A stretch of 42,429 nt of DNA from a virus, in IMG/VR virus record IMGVR_UViG_3300009168_000066, positions 1 to 42,429 of that record. The stretch is one strand, 5' to 3'. Position 1 is the stretch's first letter, and each line of letters starts with the position of its first letter. The position numbers and the translations under genes were made by a program. Below, piece by piece: positions 11,301 to 27,266 of this stretch. The notes under the pieces were generated by a model, which had not been told where the DNA came from, did not search any database, and saw only the letters and a program-made list of their open reading frames with translations.

Positions 11301-11821
11301 AAGCTGATAAAAAAGCGGCAAGGGAAGAAAAGAAACTTGCGCACGATAAAGCTATTTACGACAAGGCTTTGGCTATATCACATATTACACTAAGTACCGC
11401 TGCTGCCGTTGCCGAAGCGTTGCCCGTTGTTCCATTGGCAATAGCTGCTGGTGTAGCTGGTGCGGCTGAATTAGCAATTGCTGCAAATGTTAGGATACCT
11501 ACATATAAGACTGGTGTCAAAGGTAAACCTTCAAGCGGTTGGGCAGTAACTGGTGAAGCAGGGCCGGAATTAATTAAGCAGCCATACAAATCACCATACT
11601 TAGTTTACAAGGAAAATGTTAGCTGGCTCCCAAAAGGAACAGATGTTATTCCTTTGAAGGAAAATGATGGTATGCTTTCTCCAATTAGAGACGATGGATG
11701 GGAGAAAACAAGATGGCTGGCTAAACAATTAAGACCTAAAGATAAGAAGGTAAACGTAGTGAACAATATAACTATAGATCTTGGATTTGAAAATTACAAG
11801 AAAAGTATAATTGGTAACTAA
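8372..11821 (+). CDS. tail tape measure protein
   Basis: Sets tail length and is threaded inside the tail tube. At 1149 residues it is a long helical, Lys/Glu/Gln-rich coiled-coil protein with two hydrophobic stretches: about residues 298-330 (around YILPGIGLAGIFNLAYEAIY) and about 998-1043 (around LPVVPLAIAAGVAGAAELA). The C-terminus carries the GWAVTGEAGPELI motif often seen at the end of tape measures. At the usual 1.5 angstroms per residue the tail would be near 170 nm, which supports a siphovirus. It starts with an ATGA overlap and ends in TAATG with the tail-tip gene. Confidence 0.93.
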   Translation: MSQDYLELGLDVTSFTDAKLTKLNEFVAVFDKLSLYDGKTINPIMGSGLVQFNESVKTTSSLLTELNTKLAALSANSKNVSTSTAAASRGVKKMTEEEAKLKFETQEYNKTLMENVKAQSATAQARKTRNASIKNTQSLLKAEYDMETQISSQQETDSKKILALKKQEDAANKKLDANKKKSDADKKRSDKEAEAQSKKTKKATDDEAKAVKALASQLDKLRQIRKDQANAYAKAVVDKGSSSKEARLSLGEYEKTNKTITDIESKLKSSANAGKLFSTNLTEAGNSAETLGRNLTKGLSVLRNLAYILPGIGLAGIFNLAYEAIYKAFTALVDFKGGTEDVIRREIELNQILSETRDLLKEIGKEQSRAYQTAGKKNVFVPEEEELNRLKSFGESINEVYQQEIKLSDLQTKLAENKLIVGSPEETKKRIDQQKKGLDELLRQYGKVQQVLLEGDFKGYNYADVQSRQLIKGKELIEKKKESLEGQISFEQKKLSELNDSYEDYYANIRKNEQLKYEYQKLLADQARNLVVETTKSTIELNKQQNQIIFDDEISSYEDRAKALKDIMTQTLKENANSLYDVIKNNSSTPDEIAIAQFKFDPKKGTENLKAINEYNDKLIRLNEEYKQRLLTAVEKVDEDRINAEAVHNERIFKNEEKSLEERLAAYEKYILLRQQIQDIQFIRERNTRTLQAKGNVPESEILALLSNRDTQKLNAQADAEKQIYEIVSQSLDAQLKYLKDINQEETRENLNQYTEELKNLNESYENKLISYERYKEERKRIDKKYEVKVLDETIVDDEKDLNRLLKNRDSLLKKRKTAEENLGRKGFEASVASRGTDVGRRIAGQRGRDEAVGELNAINDAIIKNDKEIENVEKRRDENKNKREKRDFDETVANKDKELEKRRQYIQMFAAIEESIYKVVKDSIDKEYQYRVDKLNAEKALIDERYDYEIAAVQRSSLSAKDKFALDIQLNARRLEADKKAAREEKKLAHDKAIYDKALAISHITLSTAAAVAEALPVVPLAIAAGVAGAAELAIAANVRIPTYKTGVKGKPSSGWAVTGEAGPELIKQPYKSPYLVYKENVSWLPKGTDVIPLKENDGMLSPIRDDGWEKTRWLAKQLRPKDKKVNVVNNITIDLGFENYKKSIIGN

Positions 11822-14800
11822 TGCCTACACACAAAAAGAATCTATACATCTTTATAAGCGATGAGAATAAGAACTTTTATCGCGCTACTCAGGAGAAGAA
11901 TGGTAGTTATAAAATTACCTTCAATAAGTCTCCTTATCCGATATCTTATAGTCCCTCCAATTTATTAAATATAGCATTTGAGTTTGGAACAAACCAGACT
12001 TACTTTTCTTTAAACCGTACAATATCCTATCCCTTAAACTTTATTAAAGATGGAGCTGCAATATTACGTCATCTTTATTATAATGGAAGAGGGCCAAACC
12101 AGAAAGCGTACATTCATATCTTTCAGTGGAACGGTACAATCCATGAGTTATGTTACTACGGAAGGATTGACTTCACCCAGAAAAAGGAAGACCCGAAATC
12201 TGGAATGTTTACTGCTTCCACGATTGATGACTCTGCATGGGGAGTTTTATCCCAGAAAGATGATATTGAATACGCTATAGAATGCAATGAACTTAATCCT
12301 AAAGCAATAAGAGTATTGCTTGATAATGTTAATCTGTTCAACAAGTTTGTGTTCCAAACTGTTCAGGCTCCGATAGAACAAGTTGCGATTGGTACAACTG
12401 GATTTACTATGCCATTCGTTCTTATAAACCAGGAGGGCGATAGCGTAGGTATAATAACACAAGATACAGAACTTATTAATAACACAGTTCCTGCTCCTAT
12501 ACCACCATTTTTCTTTAAAACTATATACGATATATACAATACAAGAATATCTGGAAGTGTACAATTTCATTGGGAATCTAATGGAAACGTTCCAACTCGT
12601 ATAGCATTCTTAATAAGAAGACAAGGCGGAGGATTAGGGCCTGCTTTATATACATTATATTCAAGCTTTGGAACAACTCTTATAGAGAATAAAATATACA
12701 TCTCTAACTTCGATTTCGTTATACCGGAGATGCGCGCTGGTTCTTATTTGAATCTTGAAATGATACTAGAAGCATATGGCCCTAACTTAACAAATCCGGT
12801 AGTAGTAAATATTGTTTCTACAAACATATCGGTTACAACTAAGACAAGACCTGAATCTAGAGTAGTTTATGCTTTACGTCCACTTGACTTAATGCAACAG
12901 ATAGTTGCAAAAGCTACAGGAAACAGATTTACCATCAACTCTAATTTCTTTGAGGAACATAACAAACACGTTCTAACTTGCGGTGATGCTATAAGAGGAG
13001 TTGATAATGCTAAGATATACACATCGTTTAAGGATTTCTTTAAGAGCTTTGATTGTATAAACTTCATGGCTTTAAGAGAAATAAACGGAGCGTTATGGAT
13101 GGAGAAGGCTACTGAAGTTTATAAAAATTCCGGTAACTTTATTGACCTTGGTGAAGTTATAGATGTTAAAATTGAGCCGGCCGGAGAATACTTTGGAAAC
13201 GAAATTAGCATTGGATATCCAAAGGTAGATCTTCGCCATCCATCAGGTAGATTAGAATTTAACTCAACTAATACGTTTTCTTTAGACATAGAAATGTATA
13301 AGAAAACAATCGACGTAGTATCCAAATACAGAGCTGGATGCTATGATATAACCTTCTTGTTATTGGATTATCAGCAGGAGTCTACAACTGATAACTCTGG
13401 TGACAAGGAGGTTTATCTTTTGGATATAACAGATGAACATGCAGATGGAACCGACTTAGTTGAGACATTTGAAACTGTAACAATAATTACAGAGCCTTTA
13501 GAGCCATTGATAAATAGTCCAGAAAACAATGATTTACTTCCTGGTACTAAGCCAACTTTAAAAGGATATGCAACTCCATCATCTACTATAAATGTATTTG
13601 CAGATGATATACTGGATGGTTCCACAACAGCAGATGCTAATGGTAATTGGGAGTACACTTTAGTAACTCCTTTAACTCCACTTGACCCTCTAGGACCTGA
13701 TGATGGAGTACACACTTTAAAGGTATCATATACAGATTTGTTTGCTCCATTTTCAACAATAACTGTAACTATAGATACAACAAACAGTCCAATATCAAGG
13801 CAGATAATTTATCCTTTGGACGGCGAAAGTCTTTATAACAATAGACCATTATTAAAAGGAGTTGCTAATCCTGGAGACATTGTTCCAATAGTAATAAATG
13901 GAGCTTTTTGGGATAACGTTACTGCTGACGGCTCTGGCAAATGGGAATTTAAAACTGAAGTTCTGCTAAACGGAAGTCACGTTCTAGATATAACCGGAGA
14001 CACTTCCACATTCTCAGTTAATTCTTTTGTGGAATTTCCGCTTATTACTTTTATAGAAAGGGAACTGGATGGAAAACCGATAGTAGAAAATCTTCCTTTA
14101 ATTCATGGTGTAGCCATGCCAGGAACTGTAGTTAAGGTATGGTTGAACTACATATCATATGCTCCATTAGGAACTGTAACTGCTGATGCAAATGGCTATT
14201 GGGAATTGCAAACTGTATTGGTAGATTATCCAGACCCTATAACTGGTAATCCTGTTGCGCTTACTCCAATACCAAACGGAACTCATGTTATATCTACACT
14301 ATTGTCAGACGAGACAGTTCCGGTAAATGTTTCTGGATTTAAACTTAACAGACCGACATACTCTCCACTAATAGGTGTGAATGATAACACAGTTTTTAAT
14401 GTTGAGCTTTCCCCAAAAAGAATGCTTCGTAACAGAAATCCTTTATGGGCGTCCATACTTGAGAAGCTTCCACAAACCGAAATTGAGTTTCAAACTGCCG
14501 ATAAGAATAGCGCACTCGTAACAAAATTGGGAGACGATATAGTTGCTGAAAGGACAGATGTACCAGCATCAATACTTGGTGAACCATTGCTACGACTGGA
14601 GTGGATTACGGTAACTACAAAGACACAGTATACATTTCATAAGACACTACAAAACTTTAACAACGGTGGAGTTGTAAGAGCTTCATTCAGAGGCCAGCAG
14701 CTGTATATGATTCCTATTGGCGATATGAAGATGGAGACAATAACTAGCGACGTTCAAAATTGGAAGCTTTTATTATCTCCTGCAACGCCATTTAGCGTAT

Positions 14801-15789
14801 TACTTAATCTATATAATAACGGACTTAATATACAGCTAATGAATAAGTCACTATATCATAGCGATTATAACTCTCTGCACTTTGTGACGTACAACTATCA
14901 AAGGCCACAGAAATATAATCATATACCAATCTATGACGATTGGTTTGAGAACAGAAATGAGGCATGGAGTCTTAATCCGCAATACATTCAGAAGTTTCAA
15001 CGCGGAGATATAATCAGAGACCAGATTATAACCAATGGAGTGTCAGGTTTATTCTTGGAAATGTATAGGTGCTTTGATGGTATTAAGGTAGACCAGTTTA
15101 ACTACCAACCAGTTACTCCAGCACCGATACCGTCTCCAGATATTGTATTGGAAGCTGTTATTGACTTGAGCACTCATCCAGAAGACCAGTACTTCTTTGT
15201 GTTGGGAACTATGAATACAGATCTAGTAAATGTAAGTTTGGCTATATCTGAAAGGATATGGACTAAAGATAAATGGGAACGTACTGTATTGATAGAGGCA
15301 TCTAACTCTATAAACAAAACAGGATGCTTCTTCTCGTCCGGTTTTAAGAGCATTATTCGTGTAGAAGGTATTGTTAAGAAATCGCAGCCGTCATTGCAAT
15401 CCATAGTTACTAAAGATGACATTGGTGATAGCGTACTTCTACATTCAGTTGTATCTAGAAAACGTCAGATAAGATTTGGTACAGCTTATGGTTTGCCGGA
15501 TTATCTGTATCTAAAAATAGCAAACGCACTAGCGTTAGATTTACTTCTTGTGGAAGGCGTTTTTTATGTATTGGAAGAAAGCGAAAACATAGAACCTTCT
15601 GAGGATGTTGCAGGCCATCCATTGTATTACTATAATGTCAATCTAATGGTAGCCGACAATCCTGGTGGTAAAGCATTTCCTGGAGCCGAACCTGGTTCAC
15701 AAGTCGAGGGCGTAGTTGTGGTGCTAGATGCAACTGCATTTGGTTTACCAGTTGGTTCTTTGATTAATATAAATCTTCAGGACGAATAA
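11821..15789 (+). CDS. tail tip / baseplate protein with three Ig-like modules
   Basis: 1322 residues, directly after the tape measure, the position of distal tail and tail-associated hub proteins. The first 540 residues are strand-rich (IRRQGGGLGPALYTLYSS, then YALRPLDLMQQIVAKATGNRF, where a hub-like domain seems to begin). Three Ig-like repeats follow at about residues 557-650, 658-740 and 740-843. Each has a PL(I/L)xGVAxPG-like opening, a TADxNGxWE turn and a DGVHTL or NGSHVL closing strand, as in bacterial adhesin Ig-like repeats. The hub region resumes after about residue 850. The C-terminal 150 residues contain an SVVSRKRQIRFGTAYGLP segment. Likely roles are tail-tip assembly and surface binding, inferred from order and modules. 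Confidence 0.78.
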   Translation: MPTHKKNLYIFISDENKNFYRATQEKNGSYKITFNKSPYPISYSPSNLLNIAFEFGTNQTYFSLNRTISYPLNFIKDGAAILRHLYYNGRGPNQKAYIHIFQWNGTIHELCYYGRIDFTQKKEDPKSGMFTASTIDDSAWGVLSQKDDIEYAIECNELNPKAIRVLLDNVNLFNKFVFQTVQAPIEQVAIGTTGFTMPFVLINQEGDSVGIITQDTELINNTVPAPIPPFFFKTIYDIYNTRISGSVQFHWESNGNVPTRIAFLIRRQGGGLGPALYTLYSSFGTTLIENKIYISNFDFVIPEMRAGSYLNLEMILEAYGPNLTNPVVVNIVSTNISVTTKTRPESRVVYALRPLDLMQQIVAKATGNRFTINSNFFEEHNKHVLTCGDAIRGVDNAKIYTSFKDFFKSFDCINFMALREINGALWMEKATEVYKNSGNFIDLGEVIDVKIEPAGEYFGNEISIGYPKVDLRHPSGRLEFNSTNTFSLDIEMYKKTIDVVSKYRAGCYDITFLLLDYQQESTTDNSGDKEVYLLDITDEHADGTDLVETFETVTIITEPLEPLINSPENNDLLPGTKPTLKGYATPSSTINVFADDILDGSTTADANGNWEYTLVTPLTPLDPLGPDDGVHTLKVSYTDLFAPFSTITVTIDTTNSPISRQIIYPLDGESLYNNRPLLKGVANPGDIVPIVINGAFWDNVTADGSGKWEFKTEVLLNGSHVLDITGDTSTFSVNSFVEFPLITFIERELDGKPIVENLPLIHGVAMPGTVVKVWLNYISYAPLGTVTADANGYWELQTVLVDYPDPITGNPVALTPIPNGTHVISTLLSDETVPVNVSGFKLNRPTYSPLIGVNDNTVFNVELSPKRMLRNRNPLWASILEKLPQTEIEFQTADKNSALVTKLGDDIVAERTDVPASILGEPLLRLEWITVTTKTQYTFHKTLQNFNNGGVVRASFRGQQLYMIPIGDMKMETITSDVQNWKLLLSPATPFSVLLNLYNNGLNIQLMNKSLYHSDYNSLHFVTYNYQRPQKYNHIPIYDDWFENRNEAWSLNPQYIQKFQRGDIIRDQIITNGVSGLFLEMYRCFDGIKVDQFNYQPVTPAPIPSPDIVLEAVIDLSTHPEDQYFFVLGTMNTDLVNVSLAISERIWTKDKWERTVLIEASNSINKTGCFFSSGFKSIIRVEGIVKKSQPSLQSIVTKDDIGDSVLLHSVVSRKRQIRFGTAYGLPDYLYLKIANALALDLLLVEGVFYVLEESENIEPSEDVAGHPLYYYNVNLMVADNPGGKAFPGAEPGSQVEGVVVVLDATAFGLPVGSLININLQDE

Positions 15790-15934: not shown

Positions 15935-17308
15935 ATGGCAACTCTGGTTCTAAATGCTTACGCTACAGCATATCCTACTATAGTAAGTAATAGGATAAGA
16001 GCGTCTATATATTTACAGTCAGACCCTCAGGCTTTCATAACGTCTCAAACTAAAGATGCTCCTCATCCACAAAGAACATGGTCATTTCCTGGCTTGCCTA
16101 GGAATAACTATGGTTTCATAATGGAGGAGATTGATAATGCTGGTAATCCTGTAACAAGTCTTGCAAAGTTTGATGTTGTTCCTGGAGAACTTGATGGCGA
16201 CGTACTGTTTAGATTAGATGAGCAAATTAAAGTAGGAACAACTGTAGGATTAGTTGCCGGATTAAATACTTTTACTTTCGATGGAACTGGTGGAAAACCA
16301 GATTACAGAGGATGGGAGATTGTTCCGTCTGAATTAACAAACAGAGGAATACTGGTTAAAGGAAAAGATTATTCTTGGGATAAAAATGCAGGATTATTTA
16401 CATTGCTTACAGCTGGTGATGTATTTGAACAAGATAGCTGGTATAATATTCACTTTGGACAAATATCAAATCCAGCTGGAGATAGCTATCCGGTTGTAAC
16501 AGACTTTGAAATTAATTTTATAACAACAAATACTACGCTCGATGCAACATATTTCGCAAAGAAACTCATTGTGGAGCCTGCCGGCAATTACATACAAGTT
16601 GTACTACCAAGTATATTAACTGTTCCACAAGGAAGACGATTAATGGTAGAAGTAAGTGGTAATCATCTTGCCTGTGTTAAATTCGATACTACTGGCTCTG
16701 ACACTATAAACTATTTGAACGGTGAAATATATGCTATGCCAGGCGAAAGTTTTTCAATATACCGCTACATGCGTAGTGGGGTATCAGAGTGGAGAATATG
16801 TGATGTTGATGCTAACTTTCGATTCTGCGGACAGATTGTATCGGATGATTTAATTCCTGGAAGTGTTTATAATAAACAGAAACTTGATGGCTCAATAGGT
16901 AGCGTATTTACTCATGCTCGTTTGTATAACGAAGTTGTGTTACGACTTCCTTTAGGTCAGACAGTCGACTACGATGTATGGAATGCTTCGATAGATAACA
17001 AGATGAAATATTCAAAAGCTAATTCTTCAAATCCAGCTAATACAGGAAAGTTCTTTTTTCCTGATAGAAGAAGTTTTTGGGAAAGAGCAACTGGAGCGGC
17101 AAACAAGGCAGGAGATTATATTCCACCAGAAGTAGGGCCGCATGACCACGGATTGCCGCCAGTCCACAATGAAAATGGCACTGGTCTACATATTGCATCT
17201 GGAGCCAATACAGCAGCTGAAGGTCCATGTTCTGATAGAACACAGTTTAGTACAGGAGTTGAAAATACTGTAGCATCATACTTAATTAATAAATACGTTT
17301 TGCTATGA
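15935..17308 (+). CDS. tail fibre with C-terminal tail-collar-like domain
   Basis: 457 residues. The C-terminal part (about residue 370 on) shows the tail-collar pattern: GKFFFPDRRSFWERATG, then AGDYIPPEVGPHDHG with the His-x-His-type metal-binding loop, and a final strand at the C-terminus. Such domains form the trimeric tips of short or side fibres. The N-terminal 350 residues are strand-rich and probably attach the fibre to the tail (WYNIHFGQI, VPQGRRLMVEVSGNHL). It is the first gene after a structured intergenic region and overlaps the next fibre gene by ATGA. Receptor binding is the expected role. Confidence 0.78.
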   Translation: MATLVLNAYATAYPTIVSNRIRASIYLQSDPQAFITSQTKDAPHPQRTWSFPGLPRNNYGFIMEEIDNAGNPVTSLAKFDVVPGELDGDVLFRLDEQIKVGTTVGLVAGLNTFTFDGTGGKPDYRGWEIVPSELTNRGILVKGKDYSWDKNAGLFTLLTAGDVFEQDSWYNIHFGQISNPAGDSYPVVTDFEINFITTNTTLDATYFAKKLIVEPAGNYIQVVLPSILTVPQGRRLMVEVSGNHLACVKFDTTGSDTINYLNGEIYAMPGESFSIYRYMRSGVSEWRICDVDANFRFCGQIVSDDLIPGSVYNKQKLDGSIGSVFTHARLYNEVVLRLPLGQTVDYDVWNASIDNKMKYSKANSSNPANTGKFFFPDRRSFWERATGAANKAGDYIPPEVGPHDHGLPPVHNENGTGLHIASGANTAAEGPCSDRTQFSTGVENTVASYLINKYVLL

Positions 17309-20300
17309 TTTATAATCCAGCGATACCTTCACTATACGGACATAAGTTCAATAGAATAAAAGCTGAAGAAGTATTGCACGTTCCAGAAGGGACTTCAGAT
17401 ATTAATACAACTGACGAGTCTGCTCAGATAAAAGTTATCGGTGGACAGCTTAAGCTTTACTATGGAGGTGAATGGGTTACTATAGGCGGTTCAAGTACTC
17501 TTAATGTAAGAGATGGCGTGAAGTATGATACAGAGGGTTATCTTGTTTGGGGAGGCCCTATTGATGTAGATGTTACTATAACTTTAAATGGTGGAAAGTC
17601 TATTTTTATAGAGAACATTCCTTCGGCTACTACTGGTAATATTTTATATTATAATTCATCTACTGGTAAAATATCTTCTGGTGCAGTACCAGCAGCAGGT
17701 GTTACATATACTGCTACCAATGGTTTGACAATTCCTCCTACCACTAGTAATATTGAACTAGGTGGCACACTGTCAAAACTTACTACAATAAATCAATCTT
17801 CTAGTTTTGGATTGAAGCTATTGAGTACTACAATGTCATCAAGTCCTCTTATAGTTGAGTCAGCAATATTTGCAGGAAGTGGACAAAATCTACATCTAAA
17901 GAATACGTCTGCTACTGGTGGATTTGGAATGAGAGTTGAAATGGCTGGTAGCGGTGGAGGAGCAGGGATAACAATAACTTATGCATCAACTACAGGCAAT
18001 AATGTTGGAGTAACAGCTACTGTAGGAACTTATAGGGCTATTGAAGGATATGTAAGTGGTAGTGCAGCAAATGCAGCTATTTATGGTAATGTAACTAGTA
18101 CTACATCTGGAATAGCTGGATATTTTGTAGGAGGATTAGTGGCTGTTAAAGGATTAATAACTGGTACTAATTCCGGAACAACTAGATATGCCGGTAGCTT
18201 TGAAACTCAATCTACTACTGAAACAAATACTATTCATACAGCTTTAGAACTTGTACACGTTTCTGCAAGTGTGCAGCCATTAGCAGGTTTTGGAACTGGA
18301 ATGAATTTTGTCTATACTTATCCTGGAACTAATCTTAATAAGACAAATGCTAGAATTCAATCAAAGTATGAAACTGTAAATGGTATAAATTCAGGAACAA
18401 CATTAGAGTTCCTAGTAAATCTAAATGGAACTAACGCATTGGCAACAGCTTTTTCTCTTTTGGGGAACGGACAGGCTCAGCTAAATAAATATACTGGAAC
18501 TACTTTTGATGTTGGAACTCCTCCTGCTAAAACATTAGGAGTGGATGATACTGGTAAATTAGTAACCTATGTTCCTGCTGCTGGTGGAGTTAGTGGAAAT
18601 ATCTATACACAAAGTGGAACTATTACAAGCAATAGGGTTGTAAATATTGATAGCAAAGTTTTGGTATTTGATTGGAAAGGCGATACTACTAATACATTAA
18701 CTTTCAATCAGTCAGGTACAGATAGTACCTTGCAGCTAAATCTTGTTAATGGTATAAATGAAGCACACTTTGTAGCATATCCTAATTTGTTTCAATTAAC
18801 AGCAAATGCAGGAACTGATGGTAGCTCTATTATTATGAATGGCATGGGAGCTTCATTAAATGCTAGTAATGGAACTAGTACATCTTCTGTATATGTAGAC
18901 AAGAATGGAGATATATATTTCTCAGGAAATAATGTTGACTTTAGTATAGGTGGCACTATATCACTAAATGCTGGCTTTTTATACATGGCTGGAGTTACCG
19001 GCGCTGGCTACGTATTAACAGATGTAGCAGGTGATGGTACACTTACGTTGCAACCTCCTACTGGTGGTGGTGGACAAGTACCTATACAATTCAAAGACGA
19101 AGGTGCTAACATTGGTTCGGTAGGAGCTATAACAGAAATAAACTATACAGGTGCAGGAGTTACAGCTAGTGTAGCAGGAACTGTTCTAAACGTTGATGTA
19201 CCTGCCGCTTCCGGAGGTTCAGCATCAATTATACAAACAGGACTATTGGTTGAATATCGCTTTGATGAGGGAAGTGGAACTGTAGTTAATGATTACTCAG
19301 GAAACGGAAATCATGGCGTTTATGTAGGAGCACCAACTATGGTTGGTGGTGGTGGCTTTATTGCTACAACTGCAAAATATGTCACAAGCGTTTCTACTGC
19401 ATGGGCAACAATGCAAACTGTATATGTAGCATTTGAGGTGAATAATAATTCAGCTAATAGTAATAGTGGATGCGTGGTAGGTAATTCATTAGGAGCTACT
19501 GCCATCGAAATATTAACTCAAAACTATTTAAGGAGTCCTTACATATTTTCAGGAAGCCCAAGACTAGCAACGATAAATTCGCTTCCAAGTAGTCAAGTAA
19601 TTATTACATTACTAATTGATGCAGCAGGTGTTATTAATGGGAAGTGTTTTATAGATGGTGAAGAAGTAGTGTATACTGGTACGCAATATGCTACATGGTT
19701 TAATTATCGTACAGGAGTTCCTTGGATAGGAAAGTCCGGTGGTACTCACTTTCTAAATAGTGCTGCTATTTATCACTTTGCTACATATTCTACCTATCAT
19801 ACGACAGCGCAAATAAAACAGAATGTAGCAGTAATTAAGGATATACTAATAAAGCGTGGCAATCCTTTACCAACTTCTATTCTTGGTGATACAGCTACAA
19901 ACAATGTGCTGGTAACAATGGGAGATTCCATTACACAAGGACAGGGTGCTGCAACAACTGGATGGCCGGAAAGATTAACGTTAAATGAAACATTCACTTT
20001 ATACAATTTAGGAGTTCCAGGAATTACTGCTACACTATTAAAGAATGCTACTCCTGGAGTATCTACGCTTTACAATGCAAAACTTGCTCCTCATAAGATA
20101 TGTACTATAATGGCAGGTACTAATGATATTGTAGCTGGAACAGCAGCACAAGTTGTGACCTGCATGAATGATTTAAGAACCATGTGCATGAGAATGAGGT
20201 CTGCTGGATTCAAAGTTATTGTTATTACGCAATGTGCAAGGATAACTAATAGTGCGCTTTCTTCCTATAATGCTATGATAAGAGCAACATGGAAAGAGTT

Positions 20301-21210
20301 TGCCGATGAGATAGGCGACTCTGCCGCTGACCCTTTAATCGGTGCCGATGGAGCCAGCACTAACTTAACTTATTTTAATGCTGACCAAACTCATCCTACA
20401 GATGCAGGGTATATTGTAATAGCACAATATATTTCTTCAGCTATAAATAGATTAACTAATAAATTTAGTTCAGGAAGAACAAATGCTCTATATGCACAGG
20501 CCGGAAATGTTACAGTTACTAATACTGTTACGGAAACTACAGTAGTAGGGCCATCCGCTACTTTCAATTCATCTGGATGGAATAATATTGTACAGGTAGG
20601 TACTTGGTTAAATAATACTCCTAACGTAACAGCAATGGCTCAAACAGGAATGCTTACTGTTGGTATGTCGGTAGTCGGAACAGGTATTGCAGCAGGAACC
20701 ACAATATCTGCAATACCATCTACAACTACATTAACATTAAGTGCCAATGCTACTCCAGCTGGAACTAATACAAGACTGACATTTAGTAAGATTGGCGTGA
20801 AGAAAAATTATTGGCTACCTGGACGTTCTATTATGATTGAGCAAAAAGGTTTAATGACAACTGCTGGAACTCCCACTTTAAATAGAAAACTTAAATGGGG
20901 TTCAGTAATCTTAGCGTCAACAGGAGCTATAACTACGCCATCGTCTATTACTGGATTGCCATATAGAATGGTAATAGAAGTTACTTGTGTTACTGTTGGA
21001 GCGGCTACAGGAACGTTTTGGATACAAGGTGAACTAGAAGTTCAAGCATCAGCAGGTGGTGCCTATAACGTTTATGGTATGAATAATTCAGCAGTAGTAT
21101 CTATTGATACAACGGCTGATGCAATACTAGATATTACAGATACATGGGGAACTGCCGCTACTGGTAATATTGATGTAGCTACAAATCTAGTCATTACAGA
21201 AAGAAATTAA
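17305..21210 (+). CDS. tail fibre with LamG-like and SGNH-hydrolase (esterase) domains
   Basis: 1301 residues. Residues 1-640 are Gly/Thr/Ser-rich strands typical of a fibrous trimeric shaft. About 646-850 looks like a concanavalin/LamG fold (YRFDEGSGTVVNDYSGNGNHG is the common start). About 865-1045 is a GDSL/SGNH hydrolase: block I GDSITQG with nucleophile Ser875, block III GTND with Asn940, and block V DQTHP with Asp1027 and His1030. The family removes acyl, usually acetyl, groups from polysaccharides. The last 190 residues carry TLTLSANATPAGT and a closing beta head region. It probably deacylates the host surface glycan during adsorption. It is coupled to the preceding fibre by ATGA. Confidence 0.85.
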   Translation: MIYNPAIPSLYGHKFNRIKAEEVLHVPEGTSDINTTDESAQIKVIGGQLKLYYGGEWVTIGGSSTLNVRDGVKYDTEGYLVWGGPIDVDVTITLNGGKSIFIENIPSATTGNILYYNSSTGKISSGAVPAAGVTYTATNGLTIPPTTSNIELGGTLSKLTTINQSSSFGLKLLSTTMSSSPLIVESAIFAGSGQNLHLKNTSATGGFGMRVEMAGSGGGAGITITYASTTGNNVGVTATVGTYRAIEGYVSGSAANAAIYGNVTSTTSGIAGYFVGGLVAVKGLITGTNSGTTRYAGSFETQSTTETNTIHTALELVHVSASVQPLAGFGTGMNFVYTYPGTNLNKTNARIQSKYETVNGINSGTTLEFLVNLNGTNALATAFSLLGNGQAQLNKYTGTTFDVGTPPAKTLGVDDTGKLVTYVPAAGGVSGNIYTQSGTITSNRVVNIDSKVLVFDWKGDTTNTLTFNQSGTDSTLQLNLVNGINEAHFVAYPNLFQLTANAGTDGSSIIMNGMGASLNASNGTSTSSVYVDKNGDIYFSGNNVDFSIGGTISLNAGFLYMAGVTGAGYVLTDVAGDGTLTLQPPTGGGGQVPIQFKDEGANIGSVGAITEINYTGAGVTASVAGTVLNVDVPAASGGSASIIQTGLLVEYRFDEGSGTVVNDYSGNGNHGVYVGAPTMVGGGGFIATTAKYVTSVSTAWATMQTVYVAFEVNNNSANSNSGCVVGNSLGATAIEILTQNYLRSPYIFSGSPRLATINSLPSSQVIITLLIDAAGVINGKCFIDGEEVVYTGTQYATWFNYRTGVPWIGKSGGTHFLNSAAIYHFATYSTYHTTAQIKQNVAVIKDILIKRGNPLPTSILGDTATNNVLVTMGDSITQGQGAATTGWPERLTLNETFTLYNLGVPGITATLLKNATPGVSTLYNAKLAPHKICTIMAGTNDIVAGTAAQVVTCMNDLRTMCMRMRSAGFKVIVITQCARITNSALSSYNAMIRATWKEFADEIGDSAADPLIGADGASTNLTYFNADQTHPTDAGYIVIAQYISSAINRLTNKFSSGRTNALYAQAGNVTVTNTVTETTVVGPSATFNSSGWNNIVQVGTWLNNTPNVTAMAQTGMLTVGMSVVGTGIAAGTTISAIPSTTTLTLSANATPAGTNTRLTFSKIGVKKNYWLPGRSIMIEQKGLMTTAGTPTLNRKLKWGSVILASTGAITTPSSITGLPYRMVIEVTCVTVGAATGTFWIQGELEVQASAGGAYNVYGMNNSAVVSIDTTADAILDITDTWGTAATGNIDVATNLVITERN

Positions 21211-21215
21211 ATTTT

Positions 21216-21581
21216 ATGGATAAAAAAACACTGCCACTTTCAGAAGTCCTCAAATTAAATGATGAAGTAGATGGATTAATCAAAGAAAAACTACCGATCT
21301 ACTTCAAGTTTTGGTTACACAAGTTGCGTAAAAATATTATACCTAATATTGATGCGGCGCAAGTTAGTCAAAAAGAATTGTTCGATAAGTATGGATACGA
21401 AGAAGATGGTCTAATTAAAATCAAACCAGAAGGAGAAGGCTATAAAATATACATGGCAGAAACCGAGAAGATGATGAAGCAACCGATAGAAATCGAGTAT
21501 AATCCATTTGATATTTCCACAATAAAAACGCTTGAAACTAGTGTTGCATTAGATATATTTTTTAAACTAGTAGTAGAATGA
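21216..21581 (+). CDS. DUF1617-like small tail-associated protein
   Basis: 121 residues. The pattern of a Leu-rich N-terminal helix (LSEVLKLNDEVDGL), KEKLPIYFKFWLHKLRKN, then ELFDKYGYEEDGLIKIK resembles the DUF1617-type proteins found among tail fibre genes of many siphoviruses. Function is unknown; a chaperone or minor tail role is a guess. It ends inside the ATG of the following gene (ATGA). Confidence 0.6.
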   Translation: MDKKTLPLSEVLKLNDEVDGLIKEKLPIYFKFWLHKLRKNIIPNIDAAQVSQKELFDKYGYEEDGLIKIKPEGEGYKIYMAETEKMMKQPIEIEYNPFDISTIKTLETSVALDIFFKLVVE

Positions 21582-24500
21582 ATATAAAGATAACATACTC
21601 TATATCAGAGAACGCTCGTGCTAGTGCTGACCTATTATATCCTGATGGAACATTTATTAGGAATCTATGGAACCATAAACAGTTGTATGCTAATCGTATA
21701 TATACAGAATATATAAACGATATAAATGAATTGCCTGCCGGAGATAATTATAAATTAAGACTTACTACTAACAACATTCGCTCATATTGGGAAGGAGTAA
21801 TTGGTAATACAGCAGCAAAGTTGACTGGGCCTACTACATTTTTTAATATGATGCAGGCTCAGGATATGGATTCTGGAATTGATAGTTATTTTTATGTTAC
21901 GGATTATAACGAAAATAAGACCTCGTGCTTTAGGATGCTTAAGAGTAATAGAAGAGCCGCTGAAGCCATATTTCCTACAAGGGGAATGAACGCTCTCCAT
22001 GTATGCGTTAAGAATGGAGTAGTGTATTGGGCAGGAATAGACCAGTACAAGGTTAAATCATATTCAGAAGAATTTGCAGAAAGGTGGATTGACCAAAAGA
22101 TGCCTGTTAGTGAGGCTGCAAAAGGCTATCCTGATTTTACAGAGGAACGCGTTAGGAAAGGAACGCTTACCTATTGTGATGAAGATGGATACTTCTTAAG
22201 CTATAGAAAACCTGAAACAACAAAACAAGACTATATAAAATGGTTTGAAACATATGTTATAAGAGACAAGTGGTGCAATACTCTAAGTGCTGTTTGGGCT
22301 ACTAATGAAAACGACAATATTGAGAAAGAGTTTTTGCATGGACAAAAGTACAAGCCATACTTAGGGATGGAGTATAAATCTACAATAGGATTATATGAAG
22401 GTGATTTAGCAGATATAACTGGACTAGCAGTAAGCGATGATTGCATATACATAGCATACGGAGGATTAACTAAAACTTGGTATTGGAATAGCCGTAATGT
22501 TATTGTTGTACTAAATTTGCAGGGTAAAGAGATAAATAAAATTGAGGTTGACAAGCCAGGGAAAATGATTGTAGTAGACAACTATCTTTTCTACTGTTCT
22601 GGACTAAATATATGCAGGGCAAAAATAGATGCAGAAGGAAATATTGTAACTGATATTGTGTGTCATGTAAATGCTGGTTTTACTGTTCTTGATGTTTCTT
22701 ACTATGCACCAACAAATACAATTGCTGTAGCTGCTACTGATGGGAAGATTTATTACTATAACATTGAATTGATTTTACTCCGTAAATTAGGAAATGAAGA
22801 AATGTATTGGGATAAGCCTGAAGTTAGAAATGACAAATTCTATTGGGAAGATCTTCGTCAGTGTTATGAATGCTTTATATGTACAGAACAAGCTAGTGGT
22901 ATACAGTTAATAGGAGATGGCGGTAATCAAAGAATACAAATATTCGATAGACGATCTACATACATAGAGACAATATCTTGGCTGAGTACAAGCTATCAAG
23001 TTGGAGTAATCGATAGTCAACCTAATCGTATTTTTTGCGAGTATCTTGAATTTAATAGAGAATATTCTGCTCAGCCTTCATGGAAGTGGAGACTTTCAAT
23101 GAATTGGGGATGCTATGCAGAGAACGAGTGGATTTATTTAGACATGCCATTTGTACTAAATGGTAAGACATATGCTAGACAACAATCAATTTCCTACAAT
23201 AAAATAAGACTGGTTGAACTTAGTCCAGAAGTAGGAATAATAATCGTAAATGAAGTAAGCATACCATCCAACTTTAACAAGAACAATGTACTAATATATC
23301 CAGATGGTTGTATATATAGACAAGAAACAAAACCTGGATACTACATAAGAGTTAGTAGACAAAATTTATTGGGTATAAATGAAGATGGAACTTTCAATTG
23401 GGCTGCACCTGTGGTCATTGTAAACTCTGTAACTCCTCCACCAGAAAGTACAGAAAATAATATGAGTAGGAGAGTGTTTGAAACTATTGGGGATACACTA
23501 TACCAGTATAATGCACATAGAGTAGAAACAGAAAATCATTTAACAGCTATAAATATGACTGATGGTACTTTTATAGCTAACGGATTTCCTTCTACTCATA
23601 CTGGATATTTCGGAGATTATATAGACGATAAATTTGATATTGGCAACGGAGTAAGGTATCCAGGCGGCATATTTATAGCTAAAGATAATTTTATAATCTG
23701 CAATTATCATGGTGAATTTTGGGCAGCTGGACAAGTTAATAAATGGCACTTGTTTGATAGTAATCTAGTTGCACTACATACCTATGGTATAGATTATAAG
23801 ACAATAAAGAAACAAGGAATGGAGTGGCCTGTAGCAATGATGGCAGGCAATAGCTTTACCGGTAATCTTGTAAAGAGCGGTGATTATTATTATCTGTACC
23901 ATTGTGATGAAGGCCATCATAGCGGAATACATTCTGTTAGATTTGAAGGAATGGATACAGTTAAAAAAATAGAATTTCCAGTTACTGTTTATGACCAGTC
24001 TGTTAATTCTAATACTGTTTACCTGTTGGAAGGATTGCCTAAATATGGAGATCTAAAAAGTGGTGATGCTGGATGGACTATGCACCCGGAAGAAGGATAC
24101 AATGCAAGTAGTACAGACCACTACCTTGTTAGAGCAGGAAGAAAATTCATTAGTGATATTGAACCATCAGACTTGCAATTGAATTTTAGAGTCCCAAATA
24201 GAACAGCAACTGTATCATATCCTCTTGACCCTGTGAGTAGTGATAAATGGCAGCTATCAGGGTATTTATCTTTTGAGGATAACTATCATTCAAGGGATAA
24301 CGGTGCTAAATCTGGATGCAAGTTACAGTTACTTGATGCTAATGATAAAGTTTTATTTGAAATTTATCCTACTCTTGATTACTATGCAAAGATAGTTACT
24401 TTGTATATTAATGAAAGAATTGTTTTTCAGCTACCTGAATTTGATGCGGAAAAAATTCTTGATTACTTTAAGAGCATTTCAGTTTGGGCTAAAGATAGTA

Positions 24501-24652
24501 TTCTTTATACAAGGTATCATACATATCCAGATATTGTTTTAGGAAGAATTGATACTAAGCCAACACAAATAAGATTATTGGCATATAACTTCACTGATAG
24601 AACTAATGACCAAAACATATCTGTTAGGTCTTTGAAATTTAATAGGAGATAA
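21578..24652 (+). CDS. large beta-propeller-like tail protein, putative receptor binding
   Basis: 1024 residues. The first about 65 residues (ISENARASADLLYPDGTFIR, then LPAGDNYKLRL) look like the FlgD-like Ig domain that often precedes a beta-propeller in Bacteroidota proteins. Residues about 70-800 hold repeated blade-like strands with Tyr/Trp-rich turns, for example LAVSDDCIYIAYGG, VVDNYLFYCSGLNIC, VAATDGKIYYYN and IGDGGNQRIQIFD. About 865-1024 looks like a jelly-roll lectin domain. No catalytic motif is visible. Its place between fibre genes and the depolymerases suggests an adsorption protein. Confidence 0.6.
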   Translation: MNIKITYSISENARASADLLYPDGTFIRNLWNHKQLYANRIYTEYINDINELPAGDNYKLRLTTNNIRSYWEGVIGNTAAKLTGPTTFFNMMQAQDMDSGIDSYFYVTDYNENKTSCFRMLKSNRRAAEAIFPTRGMNALHVCVKNGVVYWAGIDQYKVKSYSEEFAERWIDQKMPVSEAAKGYPDFTEERVRKGTLTYCDEDGYFLSYRKPETTKQDYIKWFETYVIRDKWCNTLSAVWATNENDNIEKEFLHGQKYKPYLGMEYKSTIGLYEGDLADITGLAVSDDCIYIAYGGLTKTWYWNSRNVIVVLNLQGKEINKIEVDKPGKMIVVDNYLFYCSGLNICRAKIDAEGNIVTDIVCHVNAGFTVLDVSYYAPTNTIAVAATDGKIYYYNIELILLRKLGNEEMYWDKPEVRNDKFYWEDLRQCYECFICTEQASGIQLIGDGGNQRIQIFDRRSTYIETISWLSTSYQVGVIDSQPNRIFCEYLEFNREYSAQPSWKWRLSMNWGCYAENEWIYLDMPFVLNGKTYARQQSISYNKIRLVELSPEVGIIIVNEVSIPSNFNKNNVLIYPDGCIYRQETKPGYYIRVSRQNLLGINEDGTFNWAAPVVIVNSVTPPPESTENNMSRRVFETIGDTLYQYNAHRVETENHLTAINMTDGTFIANGFPSTHTGYFGDYIDDKFDIGNGVRYPGGIFIAKDNFIICNYHGEFWAAGQVNKWHLFDSNLVALHTYGIDYKTIKKQGMEWPVAMMAGNSFTGNLVKSGDYYYLYHCDEGHHSGIHSVRFEGMDTVKKIEFPVTVYDQSVNSNTVYLLEGLPKYGDLKSGDAGWTMHPEEGYNASSTDHYLVRAGRKFISDIEPSDLQLNFRVPNRTATVSYPLDPVSSDKWQLSGYLSFEDNYHSRDNGAKSGCKLQLLDANDKVLFEIYPTLDYYAKIVTLYINERIVFQLPEFDAEKILDYFKSISVWAKDSILYTRYHTYPDIVLGRIDTKPTQIRLLAYNFTDRTNDQNISVRSLKFNRR

Positions 24653-24682
24653 TTTTTTTCATAACAATCTAAACAAACAAGT

Positions 24683-25189
24683 ATGGAACCGTTCAGAGCG
24701 ATTATTCTACCGCTAGAAGGGCCAGTAGAACCACCACCTATAGGCGGCGGTGGAGAGCCTCCTCGTCCTAACCATGACCTGCCTCTATTTCCATTTCATC
24801 CAATCGTAGTACCTCCCGGTGGTGCATGGCCAGGAGAGCCGCCTACTGGTGGAGGAGAACCAGTTTATCCGTCATTGCCTATCTATAATCCCGGTGGCCC
24901 TGCTGGCAGCTATCCTCCTGGATTTTGGGGAGGTGGTATGGGGCCTGGAGTTAAGCCACAGCCTCCAGTAGAAGGTAGTGAACCTAAACCTGAACATCCA
25001 ATTTACTATCCTCCAGGAACTGAGCCACCAACAACTGAACCACCACCAACAGGAGAAGGTGGACAGCCTAGCCATCCAATCAACTTGCCTCCAAGTGAAA
25101 ATGGCTATTGGATTATGATTTGGGTTCCAAGTGAAGGTTGGGTATGGGTAGCTTTGCAGCCTATTACTCCGACTCCTAAGAAGAAGTAA
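24683..25189 (+). CDS. Pro/Gly-rich repeat protein, putative virion protein
   Basis: 168 residues dominated by Pro and Gly with degenerate repeats of the form (H/L)PI-x-x-PPG: FHPIVVPPGG, LPIYNPGG, HPIYYPPG, HPINLPP. It ends in a compact hydrophobic domain, YWIMIWVPSEGWVWV, followed by a basic PKKK tail. Some other phages encode similar Pro/Gly-rich proteins ending in a Trp-rich segment close to tail genes. No signal peptide is seen. It is flanked by the propeller gene and a terminator. Function unknown; a linker or adhesive fibre is possible. Confidence 0.7.
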   Translation: MEPFRAIILPLEGPVEPPPIGGGGEPPRPNHDLPLFPFHPIVVPPGGAWPGEPPTGGGEPVYPSLPIYNPGGPAGSYPPGFWGGGMGPGVKPQPPVEGSEPKPEHPIYYPPGTEPPTTEPPPTGEGGQPSHPINLPPSENGYWIMIWVPSEGWVWVALQPITPTPKKK

Positions 25190-25202
25190 ACAATTTAAAA
25201 AG

Positions 25203-25227
25203 CCTAGATATCTAGTCTAGGTTTTTT
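25203..25227 (+). terminator. intrinsic terminator between the Pro/Gly-rich and pectate lyase genes
   Basis: CCTAGA (25203-25208) pairs with TCTAGG (25216-25221) around TATCTAG and is followed by six T residues. The A run before the stem makes it partly bidirectional. The pectate lyase gene begins 15 bases later, so it may have its own promoter or depend on read-through. Confidence 0.8.
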
Positions 25228-25241
25228 CTAAAACTTATTTT

Positions 25242-26708
25242 ATGCTTAAAGTAAACGGTTGGGCTACTCAAAATGGTGGTACTACCGGCGGTAAAGGAGG
25301 TTCAGTAGTTACAGTAGATACTGCTGGAGGGTTTAGAAATGAAATATCTGGAACAACACCAAAGATAATTCAAGTAAAAGGTACTATTGATATTGGTTAT
25401 GCAGTAGTAGGAAGCAATAAAACTATTGTTGGTCTTGGAACTGATGCAAAGACAATTGGAACTATACGATTGGAAGGCTCCAAAAATGTTATTATAAAAA
25501 ATATATCTTGCTCTAATCCAGGAGGAGATGGGATTGCCGCAGCAGGAGCCAGCAATTTTTTTATTAGTCATTGCTCTCCTAATAACTGCACCGATGGTTG
25601 TATAGACGTAACTAAAGGCTCCGACTATTACACTATCGAATGGTGCAAGTATTGGTATGACAGAGATTTTGGACACAATTTCTGTAACCTGGTAGGCTCA
25701 AATGATACAGACCCTGACCAAGGAAAACTCAAAGGAACCTTTCACCACAATTACTATTGGAAGTATTGTGTTGATAGAATGCCAAGAGTAAGATTTGGTA
25801 AAGTGCATGTATATAATAATTTCTATGACCCTGCTGTAGACCAGAAGGTATCTTCCATCATAACTGCTGCAATAGGTTCTGAGGTACTTGCCGAAAATAA
25901 CCATTTTGAATCTGGCGATGATGCCTTTGAAATCAGAGAGGATGGAAAGCTGTTAGGTCGGGGCAATACCTACGGAAGTAAATACATTGGGGAGCAAAAT
26001 AACGGTAATGTTATATCTGTATTTACTCCACCTTATCCCTATGAATTGAATGCTGCAAATACATTAGGTTATCTTGTCAGAGATAAGGCTGGTGTTGATG
26101 GAGATAGTGATTTAACTGAAGAAGGTGGTGGAACGCAGCCTCCAATACCTCCAGTAGAAATAAAGCCTCTAGCCATAGTTATGGAGGACGCTGATATTGT
26201 CGAACTTCCAAAAGATTTCGCGAGCTTCAACACCTTCGTTAACAATTTGAGGAAAGGCACCTATGATATTTCAATTACAGCAACCGGCAATGGAGAAACA
26301 GCAACTGATACAAAGAAGATTTTTGTTACTGGAGACAGTACTGTTCCTGTAGGAAGTCTTATAACTGGATTCAAACTTATCGATGCTGCATATGATAAAG
26401 AGGTTGTCGACTTAGTTGAAAATGGAAGTTACAGCCTTGTAAAGTACGGAAGAAGGCTAAACGTAAAGGCAATTGTAACGGATATATCTGTTAAGAGCGT
26501 TAAGTTTGTACTATCAGGAACGCAATCGAAAACATATACAGATAAGGCACAGCCTTTCGCACTTCATGGAGATGACGGAAACGGCAACTACTATGCTGGT
26601 ACATGGAATCCTCCACCATTGGGGAACTATACAATTGTTGCAACTCCAATTGATTCAACTGGAAAAGAATTGGCATCTAGTACAGTTAATTTTTCATTCG
26701 TAGCGTGA
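25242..26708 (+). CDS. pectate lyase (polysaccharide lyase family 1-like) with Ig-like C-terminus
   Basis: 488 residues. The parallel beta-helix has the PL1 hallmarks: calcium-site region DGCIDVTKG with Asp118 and Asp122, HHNYYW from His168, and the catalytic strand DRMPRVRFG, where Arg179, Pro181 and Arg184 match the RxPxxRxG motif, followed by HVYNNFYD. The family cleaves alpha-1,4-linked polygalacturonate by beta-elimination with calcium. Residues about 300-488 form one or two Ig-like sandwiches (GTYDISITATGNGETATD; GNYTIVATPIDSTGKEL). No signal peptide is seen, consistent with a virion-borne depolymerase. It is separated from the upstream gene by a terminator. Substrate is inferred; an acidic host capsule is as likely as pectin. 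Confidence 0.9.
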   Translation: MLKVNGWATQNGGTTGGKGGSVVTVDTAGGFRNEISGTTPKIIQVKGTIDIGYAVVGSNKTIVGLGTDAKTIGTIRLEGSKNVIIKNISCSNPGGDGIAAAGASNFFISHCSPNNCTDGCIDVTKGSDYYTIEWCKYWYDRDFGHNFCNLVGSNDTDPDQGKLKGTFHHNYYWKYCVDRMPRVRFGKVHVYNNFYDPAVDQKVSSIITAAIGSEVLAENNHFESGDDAFEIREDGKLLGRGNTYGSKYIGEQNNGNVISVFTPPYPYELNAANTLGYLVRDKAGVDGDSDLTEEGGGTQPPIPPVEIKPLAIVMEDADIVELPKDFASFNTFVNNLRKGTYDISITATGNGETATDTKKIFVTGDSTVPVGSLITGFKLIDAAYDKEVVDLVENGSYSLVKYGRRLNVKAIVTDISVKSVKFVLSGTQSKTYTDKAQPFALHGDDGNGNYYAGTWNPPPLGNYTIVATPIDSTGKELASSTVNFSFVA

Positions 26709-26800: not shown

Positions 26801-26974
26801 ATGTCTACATTCATTACAGTTATCTTTGTGCTTATAGTTATAGGTATAGTCCTCTACTTAGTCAATACAAAAGTCCCTATGGACTCCACAATTAAATTGA
26901 TAATTAATATAGTAGTTGTACTTGCTGTAATTGCATGGCTCCTTAGCTTTGTAGGGTTAATAAAATGGAGATAA
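26801..26974 (+). CDS. small two-helix membrane protein (Thivi_2564 family-like)
   Basis: 57 residues with two hydrophobic helices (about 3-20 and 34-53) joined by the short loop VNTKVPMDSTIK. The pattern LVNTxxPMDxxIK then IINIVVVLAVIAWLL matches the small membrane protein family named Thivi_2564, seen in bacteria and some phages. The charge distribution and position fit a class II-like holin, but the family's function is not established. It overlaps the next gene by ten bases. Confidence 0.7.
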   Translation: MSTFITVIFVLIVIGIVLYLVNTKVPMDSTIKLIINIVVVLAVIAWLLSFVGLIKWR

Positions 26975-27171
26975 TATTTGCTAATAAGGCAGAATTAACG
27001 GAAAGCGAACTCCATGCCCTAATCGAGATAATCAAGGCGATTGGGGCTTTAGTTGTCTTCATATTTGTTTGGATAAGACGGAAGAAACGACTAAAGAAGG
27101 AGGAAGAAACAAAAAAGAAAATGGAGGAGATGCAAAAAGAATTGGATATCTTGAGGCGTCAACAATACTAA
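26965..27171 (+). CDS. single-TM coiled-coil membrane protein, lysis candidate
   Basis: 68 residues: an acidic N-terminal segment, one hydrophobic helix at about residues 25-37 (AIGALVVFIFVWI), then a strongly basic RRKKR start to a Lys/Glu coiled coil. The arrangement is that of small phage inner-membrane lysis proteins (holin or inner-membrane spanin), with the coiled coil on the positively charged, cytoplasmic side by the positive-inside rule, which argues against a spanin. Identity is unproven. Confidence 0.6.
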   Translation: MEIIFANKAELTESELHALIEIIKAIGALVVFIFVWIRRKKRLKKEEETKKKMEEMQKELDILRRQQY

Positions 27172-27246
27172 ATGACCGCGCTCGCAGGCGCGTACGCGTT
27201 CCTTATATATATGTTAAATTTTAACAAATCATTAACAAACCGTTAA
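27172..27246 (+). CDS. doubtful 24-residue ORF after the lysis candidates
   Basis: ATG 27172 directly follows the TAA of the previous gene and encodes MTALAGAYAFLIYMLN plus eight residues, ending in the stem of the next terminator. It contains the GC-rich hairpin at 27177-27192. It could be a further membrane peptide or simply leader sequence. I list it only because of its exact adjacency and hydrophobic content. Confidence 0.2.
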   Translation: MTALAGAYAFLIYMLNFNKSLTNR

Positions 27247-27266
27247 CACCATGTTAACGGTTTTTT
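27237..27266 (+). terminator. intrinsic terminator closing the late region
   Basis: CCGTTAAC (27240-27247) and GTTAACGG (27253-27260) are perfect complements around ACCAT. AAA before and TTT after extend the stem to 11 pairs and the T tract continues to 27266. It marks the boundary between late (structural) and replication genes. It also contains two GTTAAC hexamers and belongs to a cluster of TTAAC motifs starting at about 27211. Confidence 0.9.

Follow-up and report, generated by a model that had tools for sequence, protein, structure and literature searches.

Esterase fibre tip and family 1 polysaccharide lyase in the adsorption block of a probable Bacteroidota phage appear to be exchanged independently

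Does a phage that encodes both a glycan esterase and a pectate lyase-like protein among its tail genes carry a dedicated machine, or two independently exchangeable enzymes gathered in one place? The question is raised by the virus record IMGVR_UViG_3300009168_000066, a 42.4-kb contig with terminase, portal, primase/helicase and exonuclease genes, whose whole length of 42,429 nucleotides is the window analysed here. A preliminary description had proposed a two-step module by analogy with plant pectin degradation, in which acyl groups are removed before an acidic surface polymer is cut, with LamG-like, propeller-like and Ig-like binders encoded between the enzymes. The best matches of the primase are in Cellulophaga, Nonlabens and Flavobacterium phages, and the best named matches of the terminase are in Bacteroides phages. 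Since the best matches of these two proteins are mostly phages of Bacteroidota, we infer that the window probably belongs to a tailed phage of a Bacteroidota host.

Both enzymes are indeed encoded in the same tail/adsorption block, where all features given below lie on the plus strand. Upstream of the block is a virion structural or tail protein (11821..15789; PHROG virion structural, 4.3e-28) with Big_13 Ig-like domains (6.1e-13). A conserved protein of 457 aa (15935..17308; 45% identity in the sister phages L002 and L004) precedes the fibre, an ORF of 1301 aa at 17305-21210, which is followed by a small conserved protein of 121 aa (21216..21581; 64–76% in L002, L003 and L004). Then come a 1024-aa propeller-like protein (21578..24652), a small proline/glycine-rich protein (24683..25189) and, directly 3' of the fibre genes and on the same strand, the lyase (PL), an ORF of 488 aa at 25242-26708; both enzyme ORFs are present as first described. 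Among the binders placed between them, the propeller-like protein stands, its label drawn from a weak Pfam match (E 0.18) and a 25% identical INPHARED homologue annotated nhL, whereas the LamG-like domain is part of the esterase fibre itself, and Ig domains are clear (Big_13) in the protein encoded upstream, with an Ig-like region also at the PL C terminus. Behind PL, two small ORFs of 57 and 68 aa with hydrophobic stretches (26801..27171) are possibly lysis genes of holin/spanin-like type, judged from sequence only. They are followed by a terminator-like hairpin of 12 pairs (27237..27263), which has the most pairs of all hairpins counted, the total hairpin count being that of chance. This arrangement is consistent with late expression. 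The number of sigma-70 promoter-like sites equals chance.

The fibre can be divided into a shaft (residues 1-586, 17305..19062), a linker motif beginning QVPIQFKDEG (residues 586-633, 19060..19203), a LamG-like (ConA-like lectin) domain (about residues 645-830, 19225..19800), an SGNH/GDSL hydrolase domain (19918..20412) and a C-terminal part (20476..21210) without clear relatives in the loci compared. PF13472 matches residues 872-1036 above its curated cut-off (E=2.7e-15), and S875, G903/G906, N940, D1027 and H1030 are found at the positions claimed, supplying the Ser of the GDS block, the Asn of block III and the DxxH of block V. Across 11 aligned tips the catalytic S, N and H are invariant. 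A sequence search of solved structures with the esterase tip gave no match and fold comparison was required: the model of the SGNH domain built from the 11 tips (moderate, pLDDT 61) has the three-layer alpha/beta/alpha fold and matches TesA, CE3 and other carbohydrate acetylesterases at Z 14–16, about 16 for SGNH esterases. The domain ahead of it is called LamG-like because homologues match PF13385 (5 of the 11 tip family members); the window fibre itself is without such a match.

The assignment of PL to family PL1 is equally clear. PF00544 covers residues 54-222 (E=1.8e-22; 80.5 bits against a curated cut-off of 24), and hits to PL1 lyases of known structure have E-values of 1e-26 to 1e-31, a profile of the five phage copies reaching 3.7e-31. 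The catalytic domain (residues 1-290, 25242..26111) has no signal peptide. It carries the described D118, D122 and RxPxxRxG motif (R179-x-P181-x-x-R184), with D96 as a further calcium ligand; R179 and R184 correspond to R279 and R284 of the Bacillus subtilis enzyme BsPel, the arginine base and its partner. D96, D118, D122, R179 and R184 are invariant in the five phage copies and in every aligned relative. The canonical substrate lysine of pectate lyases (BsPel Lys247) is replaced by F147, and F or L occupies the position in 5/5 phage copies. Lys247 and Arg279 have both been called prerequisites for catalysis (PMC10992409). With Lys247 missing, the substrate or mechanism of PL may be shifted, and F147 could point to a weak or inactive enzyme. 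The AlphaFold model of PL from five close sequences was too poor for catalytic residues (pLDDT 47), so that the PL active site is read from sequence alignment. PL may have the right-handed beta-helix fold of the family, the model being poor but the sequence match to solved PL1 lyases strong. A more distant resemblance links PL to VexL, whose PDB entry has a PL1-like sequence (4e-8 to 4e-10). Synonymous sites are saturated, which made dN/dS uninformative.

Where PL may have come from is suggested by its cellular relatives. Niastella genomes encode secreted lipoprotein PL1 relatives with about 40% identity to the phage protein. In a tree of 25 domains the phage copies form one clade beside two of these (L039 and L040) with support 97/91, at a junction where, as the tree program warns, long branches meet. 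The clade falls within an H-x-F/Y/L group without the canonical lysine, and the H-N-K group keeping the lysine is separate. By sequence, PL is placed in a Chitinophagales PL1 subgroup without the lysine; lysine loss as phage-specific decay was considered and rejected, given that secreted Chitinophagales relatives share it. Unlike the Niastella proteins, the phage PL starts at the catalytic domain and its sequence reads without a signal peptide. Its C-terminal module (about residues 374-488, 26358..26708) is shared with secreted proteins of Bacteroidota, showing 42–49% identity to modules of Niastella, Pontibacter and Lunatibacter, and two of the proteins bearing it, Niastella L007 and Lunatibacter L012, are PF14099 polysaccharide lyases. 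A weak Pfam match and an all-beta model, within the overall poor PL model, suggest that the module is Ig-like. The place of PL in the lysine-less subgroup and the occurrence of its module on Bacteroidota polysaccharide lyases weaken the proposed analogy with pectin. Read by eye, the Lunatibacter stretch (L012 4265-7832) may be an exopolysaccharide locus: besides the PF14099 lyase it encodes another protein with a similar sequence and what looks like a polysaccharide deacetylase, with methyltransferase-like and further genes close by.

To ask whether the two enzymes travel together, related viruses were compared. PL occurs in four other IMG/VR records with 65–70% identity over its full length; these were selected by similarity to PL, a profile scan of IMG/VR returned the same four loci, and tblastn against INPHARED gave no match. 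PF13472 was found in 0/4 of these records, of which three are 47–59 kb long and L003 is a 10.8-kb fragment that cannot show absence, and lack of PF13472 leaves other esterase families possible. In the two sister phages L002 and L004, which share fibre, replication and other genes with the window at mostly about 45–60% identity, the fibre shaft is about 60% identical while the place of the LamG-SGNH tip is taken by one that combines an FN3-like stretch with a match to a beta-helix (below cut-off in L004), and the linker motif stands in a separate downstream gene. The tip thus differs on a shared shaft in two phages that retain PL, and the fibre tip is an interchangeable part on a conserved shaft. 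Conversely, relatives of the LamG-SGNH tip occur in further IMG/VR contigs and in phage Tunturi_5, and PF00544 was found in 0/20 records carrying them, records which may be fragments. No relatives were returned when IMG/VR was scanned with a single sequence, be it the whole fibre or the SGNH domain alone; finding those in IMG/VR required an alignment with the Tunturi_5 copies. The Tunturi_5 tail fibre (L013 10270-13830) contains two LamG-SGNH copies in tandem.

PL itself keeps different company. A proline-rich gene lies near it in 5/5 records, its position relative to PL varying, and the propeller-like gene accompanies it in 3/5, being full length in L003 (57%) and L005 (68%); gene order differs among the records. 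In the 21-kb stretch of L005, counterparts of the 26 window proteins compared are limited to the proline-rich, propeller-like and PL genes, and a tail fibre gene comes after PL. In L003 the replication genes are 84–92% identical to those of the window, against 65% for PL and 57% for the propeller-like protein, a pattern to be expected where a host-interaction region recombines. Between phages, the PL1 domain is 74–82% identical and the C-terminal module 50–66%. Most likely, then, a lyase cassette consists of the proline-rich protein and the PL1 lyase, often with the propeller-like protein, and is inherited independently of the tip.

The reading that we favour, at a probability of roughly 0.6, is a modular adsorption block that combines an exchangeable esterase tip with an independent lyase cassette directed against an acidic polymer of the host or its biofilm. 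The domains and their residues, the tip swap, the sharing of the cassette and the lack of pairing in relatives are observed, whereas the virion location, substrate and activity of the enzymes are inferred. The long fibre would be a conserved shaft with an interchangeable tip, here a LamG-like lectin domain plus SGNH O-acyl esterase, which probably removes the O-acyl groups of a surface glycan as the phage binds. PL, a Bacteroidota-type PL1 protein without secretion signal, might act from the particle or after lysis, using calcium-assisted beta-elimination to cleave a polymer that contains uronate and belongs to the host surface or biofilm. A more specific version is tentative: a mobile cassette of proline-rich protein, propeller-like protein and signal-less PL1 lyase with its lyase-associated C-terminal module may be exchanged between dissimilar phages and cut a non-pectin uronate exopolysaccharide through the lysine-less active site.

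A true two-step module, in which the esterase deacetylates the acidic polymer that PL then cuts, now appears improbable. Acetylation hinders some pectate lyases, both enzymes sit in one block with the named residues intact, and the distant similarity to VexL would also fit. Nevertheless, because PF13472 is missing from the PL records (0/4) and PF00544 from the SGNH-tip records (0/20), the enzymes are not a conserved pair, and since relatives have one enzyme and not the other, including sister phages in which the tip is swapped and PL kept, they look independently swappable rather than parts of a dedicated machine. SGNH fibres acting without a lyase are also known (PMC9569702). Sequential action of esterase and lyase in this phage is possible, with no sign of selection for such an order; that PL acts on pectin, and that deacetylation precedes cleavage, are hypotheses.

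Two further alternatives concern PL alone. It is rather unlikely that PL is an auxiliary enzyme, freed at lysis rather than particle-borne, whose task is to break down pectin from plants or algae in the environment or to loosen biofilm. PL has no recognisable particle-attachment domain and is no part of the fibre, and a viral pectate lyase of family PL3 has been interpreted as an auxiliary gene (PMC6460857); however, two phages that are otherwise dissimilar both encode PL among their tail genes, and PL lacks a signal peptide and the canonical pectate lysine. Very improbable is a degenerate, non-catalytic PL1 protein serving in glycan binding: F or L replaces the residue called a catalytic prerequisite (PMC10992409), but neither the calcium ligands nor the two arginines vary in any phage copy or aligned cellular relative, the same lysine loss is found in secreted Chitinophagales proteins, and the domain is 74–82% conserved. 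The modular block with an independent lyase cassette remains our preferred reading. It suggests how Bacteroidota phages may assemble host-attachment blocks from exchangeable glycan enzymes, and it draws attention to a lineage of phage PL1 proteins, unmatched in INPHARED, whose substrate may be bacterial exopolysaccharide rather than pectin and which offers a testable route to an exopolysaccharide-degrading enzyme.

Both types of enzyme have been met in phages before. In cryoconite phages, pectate lyases and GDSL-lipases are both among the putative depolymerases of variable islands (PMC7468147), and pectin or alginate lyase domains in flavobacterial phages were taken as evidence of polysaccharide-surrounded hosts (PMC8776804). 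Fibre-borne SGNH deacetylation of host O-polysaccharide was shown experimentally for Possum gp66 (PMC9569702). Like Possum gp66 and G7C gp63.1, the window protein bears an SGNH domain on a tail fibre, and O-deacetylation of a surface polysaccharide would be expected here as well; it differs in that the SGNH domain is joined to a LamG-like domain and relatives of the shaft bear other tips. The order LamG-like then SGNH recurs in gp342 of the Tunturiibacter phage Tunturi_5 and in the IMG/VR tips L016-L028 (23–33% identity over the aligned tip), which belong to different phages, none with PL1, and in Tunturi_5 to a fibre with two copies. PL shares family, calcium ligands and the two catalytic arginines with the solved PL1 pectate lyases 7bbv, 3zsc, 7xks and B. 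subtilis Pel (1BN8), from which it departs in F147 for Lys247, the missing signal peptide and the C-terminal Ig-like module. The nearest cellular relatives found, Niastella L039 and L040, have the same H-x-F motif, but they are secreted lipoproteins that end with the PL1 domain and lack the C-terminal module. That module is 48–49% identical over the matched stretch in the PF14099 lyases of Niastella (L007) and Lunatibacter (L012), where it is attached to an unrelated catalytic domain.
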